From Collimonas arenae (lineage in GTDB: Bacteria; Pseudomonadota; Gammaproteobacteria; Burkholderiales; Burkholderiaceae_D), in the NCBI RefSeq assembly GCF_000786695.1, contig NZ_CP009962.1, forward strand, positions 2,790,001 through 2,854,000: a DNA stretch of 64,000 nt, in the 5' to 3' direction. The position numbers and the translations under genes are program-made. Position 1 is the stretch's first letter. Every line of letters begins with the position of its first letter. The notes beneath the pieces were generated by a model. The model did no database searches, was not told where the DNA came from, and was given only the letters and a program-made list of their open reading frames with translations. Below, one piece after another: positions 31,356 to 38,734 of this stretch.

Positions 31356-32270
31356 CTATTTTTTGGGATTGAGAAAGCCGCGAATTGCTGTGACGGTCAC
31401 AAGCGGCTGCTCCTCCATGAGCCAGTGCCCCGAATCCTGCACAACAAGCTCGGTCACGTTCACCGCAGCGTTACGCATAACGACGGCTTCGTTCGCGCCA
31501 AACGATTTCGCACCGCCGATTGCAAGCACCGGCATAGGCAGCTTGGTTGTCATCGATATCTTGTTGTCTTCGGCATCCTTGGGAATTGAGAGGAATTGTG
31601 CAAATGCAGAGTGCATGGCGCCGGGCAGGGCATAGAACGCCGTGTAGTGGACTCGCGTTGCCTCGTTGATTTTGGAGGGATCACCTGCGAACTCATTCCA
31701 GAATCGGTCGAGGTAGATACGTTCACGGCCAGCCACCAGCCTTTCCGCATCAGGGCCGCCGAACGAAAAATGCCAGAGTGCAGGGCTGCGTACGATCTGA
31801 TCCCAGGGTGCAATGCCCGGAACCGGCGCATCCATGACGACCAACCGGTCTGTCTTGTCCGGATAGCGGGCGGCGTAGGCATAGGCAACCATCGTGCCGA
31901 TGTCATGTCCGACGACCGCGGAATGATCAACGCCGAGTGTGGCAAGGACGACCCGGATATCTGCGGCCTGCGTCTTTTTGTCGTAACCGTCGGCAGGATG
32001 CGATGACAGCCCCATGCCGCGCAGGTCCGGCACGATAACCGTGTGGTCGCGAACTAGCTCAGTTGCCAGGGGAGCCCACATGTCGCCGGTATCTCCAAAG
32101 CCATGGATCAACACTACGGCCGGACCGTGTCCTCCAACGCGAACGTGAAGTGTGGCGCCGTCGGTCTGGATTTCCTGCGTACGAAATGCCGGTGGAAACG
32201 GCTGGACCTGCGCCGCGGCTGGCTGTGCCAGTGCGATTACACCAATGACGCCAGCTAGGAATTTGAGCAT
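31356..32270 (-). CDS. Exported alpha/beta hydrolase, epoxide hydrolase/haloalkane dehalogenase type
   Basis: 304 residues with a signal peptide (MLKFLAGVIGVIALAQPAAA). The oxyanion motif is VVLIHGFGDTGDMW, and the nucleophile is Asp in VVGHDIGTMVAYAYA, which places it with epoxide hydrolases and dehalogenases rather than esterases. FSFGGPDAERLVAGRERIYL matches the epoxide-hydrolase cap, and the catalytic His is in VQDSGHWLMEEQP. The ATG at 32270 follows a GGAG-type ribosome site. It is of normal length and looks intact; the true substrate is unknown. Confidence 0.9.
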   Translation of the reverse strand: MLKFLAGVIGVIALAQPAAAQVQPFPPAFRTQEIQTDGATLHVRVGGHGPAVVLIHGFGDTGDMWAPLATELVRDHTVIVPDLRGMGLSSHPADGYDKKTQAADIRVVLATLGVDHSAVVGHDIGTMVAYAYAARYPDKTDRLVVMDAPVPGIAPWDQIVRSPALWHFSFGGPDAERLVAGRERIYLDRFWNEFAGDPSKINEATRVHYTAFYALPGAMHSAFAQFLSIPKDAEDNKISMTTKLPMPVLAIGGAKSFGANEAVVMRNAAVNVTELVVQDSGHWLMEEQPLVTVTAIRGFLNPKK

Positions 32271-32367: not shown

Positions 32368-33063
32368 TCACAGCAAAAAGTAATCGCGCCCCTCGACCTG
32401 TCCCCGGCGCAACGGGTTGCGCGTGCAATAAGGCGCATAGGCCGCATCGACGAAGCGGTACATCAGGTGTTCATCACGTCCCCTGGGAATGCCCAGGCGC
32501 GTGGTTTGAATGATATGGTCCGGCACCGGGCCTGTGTCTTCCACCAGCAGTACTGCGTGATCGAAGCGTTTGGCGTCCCATACAGGCACCTTCAGACCCA
32601 GTGCCTTGCATAGCAAAGTTTGCCCGGCGCACAGCTTGTGCGAAGGGCGTGGACGGCCTTGAGCGTCAGGGTTGTTCAATTGCATCTGCGCCAGGCTCGC
32701 CGACCCGCTCAACTCATCAGTCCACGTATGTGCGGATTTGATCAGTACTGCGTTGCCTGCGCCCTGGGCACTGAAGTTAAGGGAATCTCCACCTCGGGCG
32801 TAATACATATAGATGTAGCCGCCATCCAGAAACAAAGCCTTACGCTTTTCCGTGTATCCGAGCGACGCGTGGCTGCCTTTTTCGTCGCGATAATAGGCTT
32901 CGGTTTCTATGATGCGGGCGCTGAGCCACAATTCGCCGACCCGGTGGCGGATGACTTTGCCGAGTAGATCCCTGGCCAGCACTTGAGCGTCGCGATCAAA
33001 AAAAGCGTCGGGCAGCGCCTTTGGCAGCGTGGAGGTGAGGGCGCGAACAGCGGGCTTGGGCAT
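32368..33063 (-). CDS. 3-methyladenine DNA glycosylase (AAG/MPG family)
   Basis: 231 residues. It removes alkylated purines from DNA at the start of base-excision repair. The family signatures are visible: ARDLLGKVIRHRVG, the catalytic Glu in IIETEAYY, DEKGSHASLGYTEKRKALFL, GGYIYMYYARGGDSLNFSAQ (intercalating Tyr region), GAGNAVLIKSA and GRPRPSHKLCAGQTLLCKAL (the GPGKL-type loop, slightly altered). It ends VEGRDYFLL. It lies on the same strand downstream of the P450 but separated by about 210 bases. Housekeeping repair gene, no evident link to the RiPP locus. Confidence 0.95.
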   Translation of the reverse strand: MPKPAVRALTSTLPKALPDAFFDRDAQVLARDLLGKVIRHRVGELWLSARIIETEAYYRDEKGSHASLGYTEKRKALFLDGGYIYMYYARGGDSLNFSAQGAGNAVLIKSAHTWTDELSGSASLAQMQLNNPDAQGRPRPSHKLCAGQTLLCKALGLKVPVWDAKRFDHAVLLVEDTGPVPDHIIQTTRLGIPRGRDEHLMYRFVDAAYAPYCTRNPLRRGQVEGRDYFLL

Positions 33064-33272: not shown

Positions 33273-34301
33273 TCACCTACGGCTGATCTTGACTTCCGAG
33301 ACGCCGAGAAGCCCGGCGAGAGGTACTGTAGCGACAGTCTGCCGCGGGCTGACGGCAAAGCCGTCGTTGCGCAGGATATTGAGCAGCATCTCCGCCAGGG
33401 GAATCACCATGTTCTGACCCCAGCACCTTTCGGATACATGGCCGAACGGTAAAAAGCCAGGATGGTCGTCGGGGTTGAGGCTGTTCCAGCGCTCTGGGCG
33501 GAACGCTTCAGGGTCGTCCCAGAGGGCCGTGTCGCGGTGACTGACCAGTGGCAAGATCAAGACATCGTCGTCCGGGCCAATCCGAGAATCGAGGGCGCAG
33601 TACTCGGGGGAGGCGTTGCGCAGGATGTTCCAGGATGGCGGCAACAGTCGCAAGGCCTCATACAGGATGTTCCGGTTCGACATGGCGTCGTCGAAGGGCG
33701 CGCCTAGCCAGAGTGCGTTGGCGACTAGCGTCGAGATCGTGAAACATACCGGAGCCGCAGTGCGTCGATAGAGGCCCATGGCATAACGCCGATCGGCATA
33801 GGTCGACGCGCTGGCGGTCAAAGTTGCGAGGGCGGATGCTCCGGGCTGCAGCTTGAAAGAAGTCAGCGCACCGGTGGCGATGACCGCCCAGGTCAGTTTG
33901 GGCGTCAATTCAAGTATGCGATCCATCAAGAAACGCAAGCGGTAAGGGTCGCCGCCGAGGATCAAATCACGTAGAAAGACGTGGCCGACGTGCGGCCATT
34001 CGCCGGAGAGATCGATCTTTTCAGGTTGCTGCTTTTTCATCGCCGTCCGCACGTCGCGACCGATGGCTTGCATCGATTTCAAGGCATAGTCGCGCGGGAT
34101 AGAGCGGCCGTGGAGAGGTTTGAAAGTCGGCCGCTCGAATTCGGTCGCGGCCCTGGCGCTAAGGATCTGATCGATCAGCGCTGGAGCGGCGACGCCTACC
34201 GTATTGGCATCCAGCCGGAGAAGGTCGATGCCGCGATGATCGTTCAACAGAGCCTGGAGTCTGGGAGCAAAGACGGTGGTGCGAGTGCCTGTGGTGAGCA
34301 T
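33273..34301 (-). CDS. Cytochrome P450, candidate atropopeptide-forming enzyme
   Basis: 342 residues from ATG 34301, shorter than most bacterial P450s (about 400). The K-helix ExxR is Glu215-Arg218 (YEALRL), the PERF-like motif is FRPERW, and the heme loop is FLPFGHVSERCWG with ligand Cys293. The I-helix acid-alcohol pair (usually GxE/D-T-T) appears replaced by APVCFT, and the span from there to ExxR is short, so it is an unusual P450. A stop (TAG, 34317-34319) in this frame just upstream, and N-terminal P450-like sequence in another frame (34302-34380), point to a frameshift or a short form. The 26-codon precursor ending AWYIWY lies just upstream on the same strand, so oxidative cross-linking of that peptide is the inferred role. 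Confidence 0.85.
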   Translation of the reverse strand: MLTTGTRTTVFAPRLQALLNDHRGIDLLRLDANTVGVAAPALIDQILSARAATEFERPTFKPLHGRSIPRDYALKSMQAIGRDVRTAMKKQQPEKIDLSGEWPHVGHVFLRDLILGGDPYRLRFLMDRILELTPKLTWAVIATGALTSFKLQPGASALATLTASASTYADRRYAMGLYRRTAAPVCFTISTLVANALWLGAPFDDAMSNRNILYEALRLLPPSWNILRNASPEYCALDSRIGPDDDVLILPLVSHRDTALWDDPEAFRPERWNSLNPDDHPGFLPFGHVSERCWGQNMVIPLAEMLLNILRNDGFAVSPRQTVATVPLAGLLGVSEVKISRR

Positions 34302-34380
34302 ATCTGTCGATAATCTCTAAAATAGGGAGTCCCGCGACCGTCGGACCGATAGAAGCTGCAGCGGACGCGGGGTAAGTCAT
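34302..34380 (-). other. Out-of-frame N-terminal segment of the P450 (candidate frameshift)
   Basis: ATG 34380, with AGG about nine bases upstream, begins MTYPASAAASIGPTVAGLPI followed by LEIIDRY, which looks like the proline-rich N-terminus of a P450 (GLPxL motif). Beyond about 34300 this frame turns into Arg/His/Ser-rich nonsense, while the frame one base away continues as good P450 sequence. A single extra base (or two missing) near 34300 would explain it. The alternatives are a sequencing error, a recent inactivating mutation, or real initiation at 34301. Confidence 0.55.
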
Positions 34381-34415
34381 CGCCGTAACCTGTTATTCAG
34401 ATACGGCTCAGCGGC

Positions 34416-34496
34416 TCAATACCAGATATACCAAGCATAGTCCTTCAGGCTTTTTTCCCGTGCAAACTTGTTCTTGATGCTCATAAGAATCTTCAT
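34416..34496 (-). CDS. Atropopeptide-type RiPP precursor peptide ending in AWYIWY
   Basis: A 26-codon gene: ATG at 34494-34496, TGA at 34416-34418, with AAGG eight bases before the start. The basic leader reads MKILMSIKNKFAREKSLKDY (residues 1-20) and residues 21-26 are AWYIWY, ending exactly at the stop. AWYIWY is the sequence of tryptorubin A, a hexapeptide cross-linked between aromatic side chains by a P450 and the founder of the atropopeptides. The gene lies 35 bases before the P450 N-terminal start (34380) on the same strand, the minimal two-gene layout of that class. Maturation would cross-link the aromatics and remove the leader; no dedicated protease or exporter is adjacent. The match of six residues including both Trp and both Tyr is very unlikely by chance. 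Confidence 0.88.
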   Translation of the reverse strand: MKILMSIKNKFAREKSLKDYAWYIWY

Positions 34497-34542
34497 TGCT
34501 GTGACCTTTCAATGTGAATAGTGCCTGTGTCAATTAAAGAAA

Positions 34543-34716: not shown

Positions 34717-34742
34717 GCGTTACGTTACATGTAACGTAGCGC
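34717..34742. promoter_or_regulatory. 26-bp near-perfect palindrome (operator candidate)
   Basis: The central TACGTTACATGTAACGTA (34721-34738) is a perfect 18-bp palindrome, extended to GCG...CGC with one mismatched pair. It lies about midway between the precursor and the HilA-like regulator. Symmetry without a loop favours a dimeric-protein binding site over an RNA hairpin. Confidence 0.6.
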
Positions 34743-34977: not shown

Positions 34978-36321
34978 ATGCATACTTCATCTCACGAGAT
35001 TCCTGACATAGATCCTGTATCTGCTGGTTTTACGGTAGATAACAATGGACTTGTTTTTTACAAAGAATCACCACTTTATTTGCCGCCGAAGGAAAGAAGT
35101 GTTCTAAAGCTCCTGCTGCATGCATGGCCAAAAGTGGTTTCGAAAAATGAGTTCAAGCAGCATATTTGGGCAGGGCATATGTCCGATGAAAGTCTTGCGC
35201 GCTGCGTGACGCAACTGCGCCACGCGCTTTCGCATTTTGGGCTCATACAAATCGACTCTTTATATGGATTAGGCTATCGCCTAACAATTCTGTCAGATAA
35301 AGTGGTTGCGCCCAAACCAGCGCAACAGTTCAATGCAAGCTACGCGTCCGATACACCAAAAATTCATCCCGCACTTGCAGTAGCATGTGTCTATGCGCAA
35401 CAATTACTCGAAAATCGATCGGTAGCGGCTTTTCAGCAAGCAGAATCAACGATCCGAGCTGTGCTTTCTCGCGCCCCTTACCACATGGCCGCCAAACTCA
35501 TACTGGCGCAATGTCTGGCTGACAAAATCAGCTGCGGCGTGGACGCCGATATTGCGCTGGTTGAAGACGGGCTGAAAATCCTTGACCAAGTGGTGGACAT
35601 TGCGCCTGAGACTCCAGGCCTGCAATCGCAAATAGCCCACCTGCTTGATTGCAAATGGCAGTTTGGCGAGGCTCGGTTGATGCACGAACAGGCTTTATGT
35701 GCTGCGCCAGAAGATATGCTCACGCATTTCCATTACGGCTTGCATTTGTTGGCAACCAATGCTCCCATCGAAGCAGTCTCCGCGTTTCGTTGTGCCATCG
35801 AACTGAACCCGTTTGTACCGAATTTATCACTGATGCTTATTCGTGCAATGACTTTTGCTGGCGCCGATCCAGCCGACATTGTCATGCAGACCCGCAGTAC
35901 ATGTCGCATGTATCCAGATAACCAGCATGCCTATTTACATTTGCTTTGTGCGCTGGCGCTAAAAGATCCACAGCCAGAAATAGCTCATGCAGCCCGGCAT
36001 ATATTACTGTCGGCTCCCTCTGCAGTATTTTGGGAAGGAAAGATCTCTTACATACTTGCTCGCTGCAATGATTCGGCAGGTGCGCTGGGTGTCATCGCAT
36101 CGCAGGCAGGCGAAAATGTCAGTATTCGAGCGATGCATTCTGCAGCTTTGATTGAAATGGGGCGTGTTGACGAGGCCATGGCAGTGATCAAGGAAGCGGC
36201 CAATAATGGCTGTGGCCCATTGCCGATTTTAGTAAATTCATTGGAAAATTCCTTACTCAAGCTGCATCCGGACTATCCAGCCGTGCACGCAAAGATATTT
36301 GCGCATAGCTACGCTGATTAG
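34978..36321 (+). CDS. HilA/CadC-like winged-helix regulator with TPR domain (paralogue 1)
   Basis: 447 residues. The N-terminal OmpR-type winged helix (LYLPPKERSVLKLLLHAWPK, SDESLARCVTQLRHALSHFG, IDSLYGLGYRL) is followed by a long helical region with TPR-like repeats (AAKLILAQCLADKI, SQIAHLLDCKWQFGEARLMH, FHYGLHLLATNAPIEAVSAF). There is no receiver domain and no membrane helix, as in HilA-type regulators. It is about 60% similar by eye along its length to the gene at 43097, which lies next to a giant adhesin. Divergent from the RiPP precursor, it is a candidate regulator of that locus. The start lacks a strong ribosome site, but the paralogue begins alike (M-x-T...DIDPVS). Confidence 0.88.
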   Translation: MHTSSHEIPDIDPVSAGFTVDNNGLVFYKESPLYLPPKERSVLKLLLHAWPKVVSKNEFKQHIWAGHMSDESLARCVTQLRHALSHFGLIQIDSLYGLGYRLTILSDKVVAPKPAQQFNASYASDTPKIHPALAVACVYAQQLLENRSVAAFQQAESTIRAVLSRAPYHMAAKLILAQCLADKISCGVDADIALVEDGLKILDQVVDIAPETPGLQSQIAHLLDCKWQFGEARLMHEQALCAAPEDMLTHFHYGLHLLATNAPIEAVSAFRCAIELNPFVPNLSLMLIRAMTFAGADPADIVMQTRSTCRMYPDNQHAYLHLLCALALKDPQPEIAHAARHILLSAPSAVFWEGKISYILARCNDSAGALGVIASQAGENVSIRAMHSAALIEMGRVDEAMAVIKEAANNGCGPLPILVNSLENSLLKLHPDYPAVHAKIFAHSYAD

Positions 36322-36415: not shown

Positions 36416-38734
36416 TTATTCTCGGCTCCCGTCATCGAACAACGGTAGTCCAATCCGAAAAATTGTGCCGGCTCCCGGGATGCTCTGCGCATCAAACCAG
36501 CCATGGTGCCGCTTGACTACTGCATGTACGACGGAGAGCCCAAGGCCGCGACTGCGAGCAGCTTGCGGTCCATCTTCGCGATGTGCGTGACCTGTGGAAT
36601 TCGAGCCCGACATCAACCGCGCCAGTTTCTTTGCCTCGATTCCGTCACCTTCGTCGCGCACTGTCAGCACGACTTCGGCAGTATCGACCGCCACCTCTAT
36701 GCCAAGGCGGACCGTGCTGTCCGGCGGACTATGCCGAATTGCATTGTTGAGCAGGTTAAGCAGAGCGCGCGCCAGCATCACCTGATCCACCCGGATTGGA
36801 CAATTATCTTCGCCCAGTTCCGGTTCCAATGTTATTCTTCGCACTTTCGCGTAAGACCAAGCCTGGTCGACGGCATCCAGCATAATGGCGCCAGCCTGGG
36901 TCTCTGTGAAACGGTAGTCGCCGGATTCGGCTTCTGCGAGGTCCATGAAACCTTCGGCCAATCCTAGTGTACGCTGCGCTTCGCGTCGAATATCGTGGAC
37001 CAGGCGGTCGACGCCGATACCGGATCCGGGCTGTTCGTAAAGATTCAGCAGGCTCAGGATCGATACTTGCGGGCTGCGCAGGTCGTGGGAAACAAAGCTG
37101 AGCCACTGCTCGCGCTTGCGTTGTGTCAGGCGCTCGATGGTAAAGTCCTGGAGAACCGCCAGCCAGGTGCGCGGGACGGTATCGTTGCTATCAAGCCGCG
37201 CCATACGCAGCCGGAACACCTTGCCCTGCTCAGTGGTGTATTCACCGCTGAACGCCTGCGACCAGTGAATCTCCGGTTGCGGACGGCTGCTGGCGATTTC
37301 ATGCAGCAATGCTGGCAAGCTGCGCCCGCGCAACGGATCATGTGCCACATCCGACGGTGTCAATGCAGGCGCCAGCAGCAGTTGCGCAGCGGCGTTGCTT
37401 TGGCTGATACTGCCGTCGTCCTGGCAGATCAGTACAGCGACCGGCATTTGCCACAACCCTTTGCTCAGCAAAACTTGCATTTGAGACAATCTGTCGATCG
37501 CACGGTCTAGTGCCTGCGTCTGGCTTTCGACGGTATGCAGCGCCGATGACATAGCGCCAGGCGCAGGCTCAAAAGCACCGGCCGGGATAGCATTGAGGGT
37601 GCCGACCCGTTCCCCAAAAAATAGCAGCAGCGCATTGAGTTGGCGCCAGCTCCAAAGAAAATAGGCTATGGCCACGCCAAGTATCGGTGCGACAGGTGGC
37701 AACCAGTAATGTCTCCAGAGCAGATTGACCACGCACAGCAGCAGCCAGCCCAAAGCGACGCAGCAGGCGAAGGACAGGGCGTTGCGCGGGGTGTGCAGAA
37801 ACAACAGGAGCGCCAGAAGGATTGGAAAGAAGGTCCATGCCATTAGCGGCGGTCCCTGCGCAAAAGTGATTGCGCGACCTTGCTGAAGCATATCGATTGC
37901 GTTCGCATGCAGTTCCAGACCTGATATGCGCGCCTGCGGCCCTACGCCCGCGACCGGCACGTCATTGTCCAGGCCGGAGCCACTCACGGCGCCGATCAGA
38001 AGGATTTTTCCTTGCAGGAATTCTGCCGGGACTTCGCCGCGCAAGACGCTGACATAGGGCACGGTACGATAAGTCTTGGATTTGCCGGCAAGGGAGAAGC
38101 CGAATGGTCCCCGTCGTTGCCAGCCAACGGCGCTGGGTGGTTCCAATAGGGTGTCAGCTGACGTGCGGCGGTTCGACGCGATCAGTTCACCGACATATGG
38201 CTGGAGGTTGCCGGCGACGCCTTCTTGGCGAAACAGACGTCGGGCGATACCGTCGGTGTCGGGAGTCAGCTGGACGTGCCCAATCCCTTTGGCGTTGAGT
38301 GCAAACTCGGCTAGCGGTGGCCTGAAGCGGGCAGCGTCAGCCGTGTTGTCATCCAGTTCGACATAGTGCAGCGGCAAAAAAACAGGCAGCTTTCGCATCG
38401 CCATCGCCAGTTCCTGGTCAGCTTCAGGCGTAGCGCCGGGCCGGTCCAGGAACAAATCAAGCAAGACGGCGCGCGGTGCATACGCAGACAGGCGTTGCAG
38501 TAGTTGCGCATGCAGGCTGCGTGACCACGGCCAGGGGCCAAGTTCGTTCAGGCTGCGTTCATCAATGCCGATCAGCAGGATATCGTGCGACGGTTCATGC
38601 ATATCAAACTTGATCAAGCTATCGTATATCGCCAGGTCGGCCTGTACCAGTCCCGGTCGCTGGCCCAGCCACATCATGAGCGGCGGCAGCAGCAAGGCAA
38701 TCAGCACCAATTCGATCAGGAAGCGATGTTTCAT
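36416..38734 (-). CDS. CHASE2-domain sensor histidine kinase
   Basis: 772 residues. An N-terminal membrane helix, then a large extracytoplasmic CHASE2 domain (ILLIGIDERSLNELGPWPWS, AVLLDLFLDRPG, GKILLIGAVSGSGLDNDVPV), three membrane helices (about residues 300-375), a PAS-like region, a HisKA domain (SFVSHDLRSPQVSILSLL with acceptor His) and a HATPase domain (LLNNAIRHSPP, VRDEGDGIEA, RSRGLGLSVVHAVVKRHHGW). It is the last gene of a three-gene operon with a FecR/LysM protein and an OmpR-type regulator, a recurrent CHASE2-FecR-regulator arrangement in proteobacteria. It starts 7 bases after the FecR-like stop, so the operon is tight. Signal unknown. Confidence 0.94.
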   Translation of the reverse strand: MKHRFLIELVLIALLLPPLMMWLGQRPGLVQADLAIYDSLIKFDMHEPSHDILLIGIDERSLNELGPWPWSRSLHAQLLQRLSAYAPRAVLLDLFLDRPGATPEADQELAMAMRKLPVFLPLHYVELDDNTADAARFRPPLAEFALNAKGIGHVQLTPDTDGIARRLFRQEGVAGNLQPYVGELIASNRRTSADTLLEPPSAVGWQRRGPFGFSLAGKSKTYRTVPYVSVLRGEVPAEFLQGKILLIGAVSGSGLDNDVPVAGVGPQARISGLELHANAIDMLQQGRAITFAQGPPLMAWTFFPILLALLLFLHTPRNALSFACCVALGWLLLCVVNLLWRHYWLPPVAPILGVAIAYFLWSWRQLNALLLFFGERVGTLNAIPAGAFEPAPGAMSSALHTVESQTQALDRAIDRLSQMQVLLSKGLWQMPVAVLICQDDGSISQSNAAAQLLLAPALTPSDVAHDPLRGRSLPALLHEIASSRPQPEIHWSQAFSGEYTTEQGKVFRLRMARLDSNDTVPRTWLAVLQDFTIERLTQRKREQWLSFVSHDLRSPQVSILSLLNLYEQPGSGIGVDRLVHDIRREAQRTLGLAEGFMDLAEAESGDYRFTETQAGAIMLDAVDQAWSYAKVRRITLEPELGEDNCPIRVDQVMLARALLNLLNNAIRHSPPDSTVRLGIEVAVDTAEVVLTVRDEGDGIEAKKLARLMSGSNSTGHAHREDGPQAARSRGLGLSVVHAVVKRHHGWFDAQSIPGAGTIFRIGLPLFDDGSRE

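Follow-up and report, generated by a model that had tools for sequence, protein, structure and literature searches.

A predicted atropopeptide cluster with the tryptorubin A core in Collimonas, and a hairpin between precursor and P450 genes across the family

The 64,000-nucleotide stretch of the Collimonas arenae genome analysed here (the window) carries a short precursor peptide gene whose product ends in AWYIWY, followed on the same strand by a cytochrome P450 gene. We conclude with high confidence that these two genes form an atropopeptide cluster, in which the P450 is predicted to cross-link the precursor and which would give tryptorubin A or B once a host protease, likely unlinked to the cluster, has trimmed the leader. 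The class is already known from other bacteria, and the cluster adds to it a member and a new regulatory lead. New here is a GC-rich RNA hairpin between precursor and P450, found family-wide and with compensatory changes.

Precursor peptide, cytochrome P450 and class membership

The precursor gene (34416..34496, minus strand) encodes the 26-residue peptide MKILMSIKNKFAREKSLKDYAWYIWY. Its core, AWYIWY with Trp at position 2 (34419..34436, minus strand), is identical, letter for letter, to that of tryptorubin A. A Shine-Dalgarno-like AAAGG (34505..34509, minus strand), read off the sequence, lies 8 nt 5' of the ATG. The NCBIfam model NF038372 (tryptorubin_fam) matches the peptide end to end at 52.8 bits, above the curated cut-off of 33, which places it in that family; this is the sole match at E ≤0.001 in the whole 5.64 Mb genome (two contigs; E 2.9e-12), and none of the 14 control genomes gave a match. 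An earlier note on this DNA had described a 26-codon frame ending in AWYIWY with its own ribosome site, and translation, model match and the AAAGG agree with that description.

The P450 gene (33273..34301, minus strand) encodes a predicted cross-linking enzyme of 342 residues with the heme-ligand motif FGHVSERCWG and an ExxR motif (E215, R218), and matches Pfam p450 at 50.6 bits (cut-off 22.8). It is on the same strand as the precursor gene and downstream of it, as the earlier note had said; the wording that it follows "at once" was slightly loose, given a gap of 114 bases. P450s of the atropopeptide family are short, and 21 relatives align with the window protein from about residue 7 through the C-terminus, for which reason we judge it complete. 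About 5 of these 21 are annotated with longer N-termini that differ from one another. An N-terminal frame error, suggested by an ATG in another frame at 34380, was rejected by eye since the relatives align in the given frame. The residues invariant in the family are kept, including the heme-ligand Cys and ExxR. Identity reaches 75-83% with the P450s of Collimonas, Paraherbaspirillum and the closest metagenomic sequences, 60% with that of Amycolatopsis xylanica, the source of amyxirubin, and 57% with that of Embleya scabrispora, the source of scabrirubin. The gene has a GC3 of 0.73 versus 0.46-0.68 in six neighbour genes, and the genome holds one other P450. Against the model of the aminopyruvatide P450 ApyO (NF050147), the window enzyme scores 58.9 bits, with a cut-off of 525.

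Atropopeptides have been defined by a class P450, a KSLK motif (or a listed variant) in the leader and Trp at core position 2, according to the available portion of PMC11450843. The window P450 is 57-83% identical to P450s that lie beside such precursors, two characterised source organisms included, and groups with them in the tree; KSLK occupies residues 15-18 of the precursor (34443..34454, minus strand); and the second core residue is Trp. Biarylitides are instead defined by a five-residue precursor encoded by an 18 bp gene (available portion of PMC13417212), and the window precursor has 26 residues. Among named loci with related P450s (the best 80 of 101 found), a precursor ORF adjoins the P450 in 80 of 80, and the core is AWYIWY in 24 of the 80 (23 by the analysis and one, L031, read by eye). 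Two of the Xanthomonas loci deserve mention on their own account. In X. cucurbitae (L019) the P450 frame stops 95 residues past the start of the match while the precursor ORF is open, and in X. vasicola (L025) the core is SWGLYM, with a single Trp.

The possibility that a chance short ORF happens to lie next to an unrelated P450 of fatty-acid or terpene type has, in our judgement, a negligible probability. Terpene and fatty-acid enzymes do appear among the low-scoring P450 models that match the window protein, all far under their own cut-offs. Against chance stand the placement of the P450 in the tree and an NF038372 match that is far above its cut-off and unique in the genome; this family match, together with the presence of a precursor ORF at all 80 related loci examined (best 80 of 101), excludes it. 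The earlier note had staked its reading on homologous short ORFs lying beside related P450s and on the window P450 grouping with atropopeptide enzymes rather than with unrelated ones. Both turned out in its favour, and its central proposal, an atropopeptide precursor with a class P450 in a betaproteobacterium, is sustained by the NF038372 match, the published definition and the tree.

Genomic surroundings, distribution and history

Domain matches confirm the glycosylase, HilA-like regulator and CHASE2 operon that the earlier note had named around the cluster. A DNA-3-methyladenine glycosylase gene (32368-33063, minus strand) was not matched in any of the 14 other genus genomes, which indicates that the cluster lies in a region that varies between strains. 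On the other side, a divergent gene (34978-36321, plus strand) encodes a regulator with a HilA-type DNA-binding domain and weak TPR matches; counting itself, it has 8 near-full-length copies in the genome, and comparable copies occur in 2 of the 14 other genus genomes. Further neighbours are CHASE2 kinase, FecR-LysM and response-regulator genes. The interval from the precursor to the HilA-like gene contains a perfect 16-base palindrome, ACGTTACATGTAACGT (34722-34737), with 1 exact copy in the genome and 2 other places that have one mismatch (reversed control 0); it is possibly a regulator site. Three promoter-like matches were found versus 1.7 expected, the nearest to the precursor on the same strand being about 400 bases upstream (34924-34895).

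Window ORFs of at least 90 aa at 26-42 kb were compared with 15 pseudomonadotal loci. Matches there were confined to the P450 and its antisense frame, apart from a LuxR-type gene that matched in 1 locus. Therefore, the LuxR-type gene apart, no other window ORF recurs and the cluster unit consists of two genes; a third gene common to the window and these related clusters was sought and not found. Seven Xanthomonas loci have neighbours in common among themselves. Among the nine window neighbours scanned, the closest to a protease is an alpha/beta hydrolase two genes downstream of the cluster (31356-32270, minus strand), by a secondary and weaker match to the Pfam S33 serine aminopeptidase family (35.6 bits, cut-off 27). 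This hydrolase does not recur beside the clusters of the 15 loci.

A survey with NF038372 covered genomes sampled from the family (392), order (399) and class (369). Over the cut-off were 4 of the 392 family genomes, all within Collimonas (4 of 15 genus genomes), and, in the order and class samples, the window's own genome only. A locus in another genus of the family (L006, in genome G096) scored 24.2 bits, under the cut-off. In a P450 tree of 94 rows, 64 rows form one group with an SH-aLRT of 96: 27 named pseudomonadotal rows, including the window and genus genomes, and 37 unnamed ones. The group as tested leaves out P0041, a row without a name that fell with Streptomyces, and it holds zero named actinobacterial rows. 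The earlier note had raised a transfer as a possibility; this grouping gives no support to a recent transfer out of actinobacteria.

The window P450 stands nearer to metagenomic and Dyella rows than to the other Collimonas and Paraherbaspirillum rows (support 94, no star), and constraining it to join the nine rows of Collimonas/Paraherbaspirillum type costs 15.3 log units with a p-AU of 0.265, which does not reject joint placement. We therefore discarded the tree as proof of a separate acquisition within Collimonas. Chromosomal location does suggest such an acquisition: in a comparison with the 15-kb stretches that surround three other genus copies, alignment is confined to 33299-34496 (75-76% identity), and this 1.2 kb cassette is all that the window copy has in common with them, whereas two of the three each have kilobases of flank in common with the third (G208). 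From this comparison, the cassette now occupies at least two different locations in a single genus.

An intergenic hairpin across the family

Gaps between precursor and P450 were folded and compared with shuffled sequence (81 gaps; 2 gaps under 60 bases left out). Their mean z was -2.64, with 49 of 81 at ≤-2 and 33 of 81 at ≤-3. Control stretches of equal length gave mean values of -0.47 upstream, -0.06 and +0.34 inside the P450 and -0.53 downstream, and reached z ≤-2 in 6/81, 1/81, 2/81 and 11/79 cases, respectively. The best gap hairpin has an energy of -24 kcal/mol or lower in 76 of 83 gaps. In a first hairpin type (26 sequences, picked by hand and hence biased towards pairing), 88.7% of cells pair and two-sided changes occur in 7 of 16 pairs; 20 cells have two-sided changes versus 5.4 in shuffles, and shifting the partner by 1-3 columns lowers pairing to 29-44%. 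A second, partly different type, in 11 hand-picked Streptomyces loci, shows 96.9% pairing with two-sided changes in 5 of 18 pairs.

A held-out model trained on 22 sequences, Collimonas excluded, found the hairpin at the right place as its top matches in the three other Collimonas loci (40-46 bits). Of the other untrained loci (held-out model R2), 13 of 57 yielded a match to the gap hairpin in the correct strand orientation at E ≤10, only L025 being below 0.01, among 81 rows in all, many of them elsewhere or on the opposite strand. A single sequence model for the whole family was thus not achieved.

The window's own copy is a weak stem-loop (34331..34371, minus strand; -17.6 kcal/mol) that keeps 10 of 13 main-stem pairs, the other 3 being broken, and is the fourth weakest of 83. 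Its gap has shuffle z values of -0.35 and -0.53 (two runs), and the window's own controls fold better, at -2.52 upstream and -2.16 in one P450 stretch. The held-out model gives 19.4 bits at 34328-34374 (E 0.33), so that a site at 37510-37570 and another in L088 outrank it. The former is an inverted repeat within the CHASE2 kinase gene, and the hairpin model matches it on either strand. The window hairpin alone is not significant and would not be called a structure; we include it as a feature because it aligns with the family hairpins at the same place.

A GGAG ribosome site is present in 72 of 83 gaps, the window gap being one without it, and CTCC stands shortly 5' of GGAG in 26 of 83 gaps versus 4.0 expected from shuffles. 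We infer that the hairpin holds P450 levels down in relation to the precursor on which the enzyme acts. Leaky terminators and RNA-stability elements are known between precursor and enzyme genes in other RiPP operons, and we give almost an even chance to the hairpin being one of these rather than a translation throttle. The structure predicted in the bytA-bytO gap of a biarylitide operon is figured beside a terminator hairpin in the available portion of PMC8708641, which lends this alternative some weight. However, no T tract (at least 6 T in 10 nt) comes after any of the 83 best hairpins, and the excess of CTCC-GGAG points at the ribosome site, though 57 of 83 gaps lack this arrangement. The throttle reading would also offer an explanation for a published result, the roughly 100-fold rise in yield after a ribosome-binding site was inserted before the P450 of the sva cluster in S. 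albus, and would make the family hairpin a handle for raising yields. Rfam left the window hairpin unmatched, with one weak match elsewhere, far under its cut-off. None of the terms hairpin, stem-loop, terminator or intergenic appears in the main text of either atropopeptide paper (PMC11450843 and PMC12352619), and among the matches listed by our literature search on intergenic structures in RiPP operons, PMC8708641 was the sole relevant one.

Predicted product and relation to known systems

By analogy with a published model of a Streptomyces pair, the leader helix and KSLK motif would dock onto the P450, which would form three bonds, C-C and C-N, among Trp2, Tyr3, Trp5 and the backbone. A host protease, likely encoded elsewhere, would then remove the leader to give tryptorubin A, and further loss of Ala would perhaps give tryptorubin B. 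The stem-loop between the genes would probably lower P450 output relative to the precursor; in the window copy this stem-loop is weak. According to the available portion of PMC11450843, a three-bond product lost 4 H and a product with a fourth bond lost 6 H. Computed from residue masses, loss of 4 H corresponds to [M+H]+ 897.393 for tryptorubin A and 826.356 for the form without Ala; for loss of 6 H the values are 895.377 and 824.340, in agreement with those published for the laurentirubins.

Three bonds are expected by extension from lauA and lauB1, whose co-expression in S. albus, with the core WYIWY, yielded tryptorubin B carrying three modifications (available portion of PMC11450843). The window P450 is only 57-60% identical to the characterised enzymes with which it was compared, so the number of cross-links could differ. 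We consider it unlikely, if a serious contender, that the cluster makes a simpler atropopeptide than tryptorubin A, one that carries a single bond or two or whose C-terminus has been trimmed, as in scabrirubin or varsorubin B2a. The same core can give differing bond patterns, one P450 yielding several products from a single core and another forming only one bond, and the position of a P450 in the tree may poorly predict its product, as described in the available portion of PMC11450843; moreover, ScaB yields monocyclic products from many precursors (available portion of PMC12352619). The LauB1 result speaks for the three-bond product instead. Less probable still, the cassette may be decaying or silent, with a sequence that is intact yet goes unexpressed in this strain. 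The distance to any promoter-like match, the weak hairpin, the missing GGAG ahead of the P450 and the patchy presence of the cluster (NF038372 passes its cut-off in 4 of the 15 genomes from the genus and 4 of the 392 from the family) would fit such a state, but both reading frames are intact and the P450 retains the family-invariant residues, heme-ligand Cys and ExxR among them. The fullest form of our proposal, that a conserved stem-loop doses these clusters across two phyla by hiding the P450 ribosome site and holding the enzyme far below its substrate, and that the Collimonas copy, with a decayed lock, is a source of true tryptorubin A in a Gram-negative genus that feeds on fungi, is tentative and, taken whole, rather unlikely. 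Since Collimonas pairs the exact tryptorubin core with a P450 of its own, it would provide a direct test of whether one core takes one shape across phyla.

The earlier note had seen here a new taxonomic home for the class. This does not stand for the phylum, as 683 putative atropopeptide clusters from Actinomycetota and Pseudomonadota, mainly Streptomyces and Xanthomonas, had already been published; it holds at most for Betaproteobacteria. In its available portion, a 2025 paper (PMC12352619) gives no atropopeptides as reported from Pseudomonadota and describes five pseudomonadotal precursors cyclised by a Streptomyces-type P450 in S. albus. No publication joining Collimonas with atropopeptide terms was among the matches listed by our search, which covered literature other than the supplementary lists of PMC11450843, where Betaproteobacteria may be included.

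Among known systems, the tryptorubin A/B cluster of Streptomyces (trp) and lauA/lauB1 share with the window, in their published descriptions as far as available, the pairing of precursor and P450, the KSLK leader and the core AWYIWY or WYIWY; their hosts belong to another phylum, a second P450 is present in the lau cluster, and the window cluster is known from its genes alone. The pseudomonadotal clusters, mostly from Xanthomonas, share the P450 group and the layout, and several Xanthomonas cores are AWYIWY; in the available portions of PMC11450843 and PMC12352619, Xanthomonas clusters often encode proteases alongside, whereas the nine scanned neighbours in the window offer the alpha/beta hydrolase at nearest. 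Biarylitide systems (bytA/bytO and others) resemble the window as minimal RiPP systems of precursor and P450 with a predicted gap structure (available portion of PMC8708641) and differ in their five-residue precursor (available portion of PMC13417212). Closest are the other Collimonas clusters (C. humicola L007 and L090, G117, G208), which share genus, core and a P450 78-79% identical to that of the window, and differ from it in chromosomal place, in leader and in a stronger intergenic hairpin.
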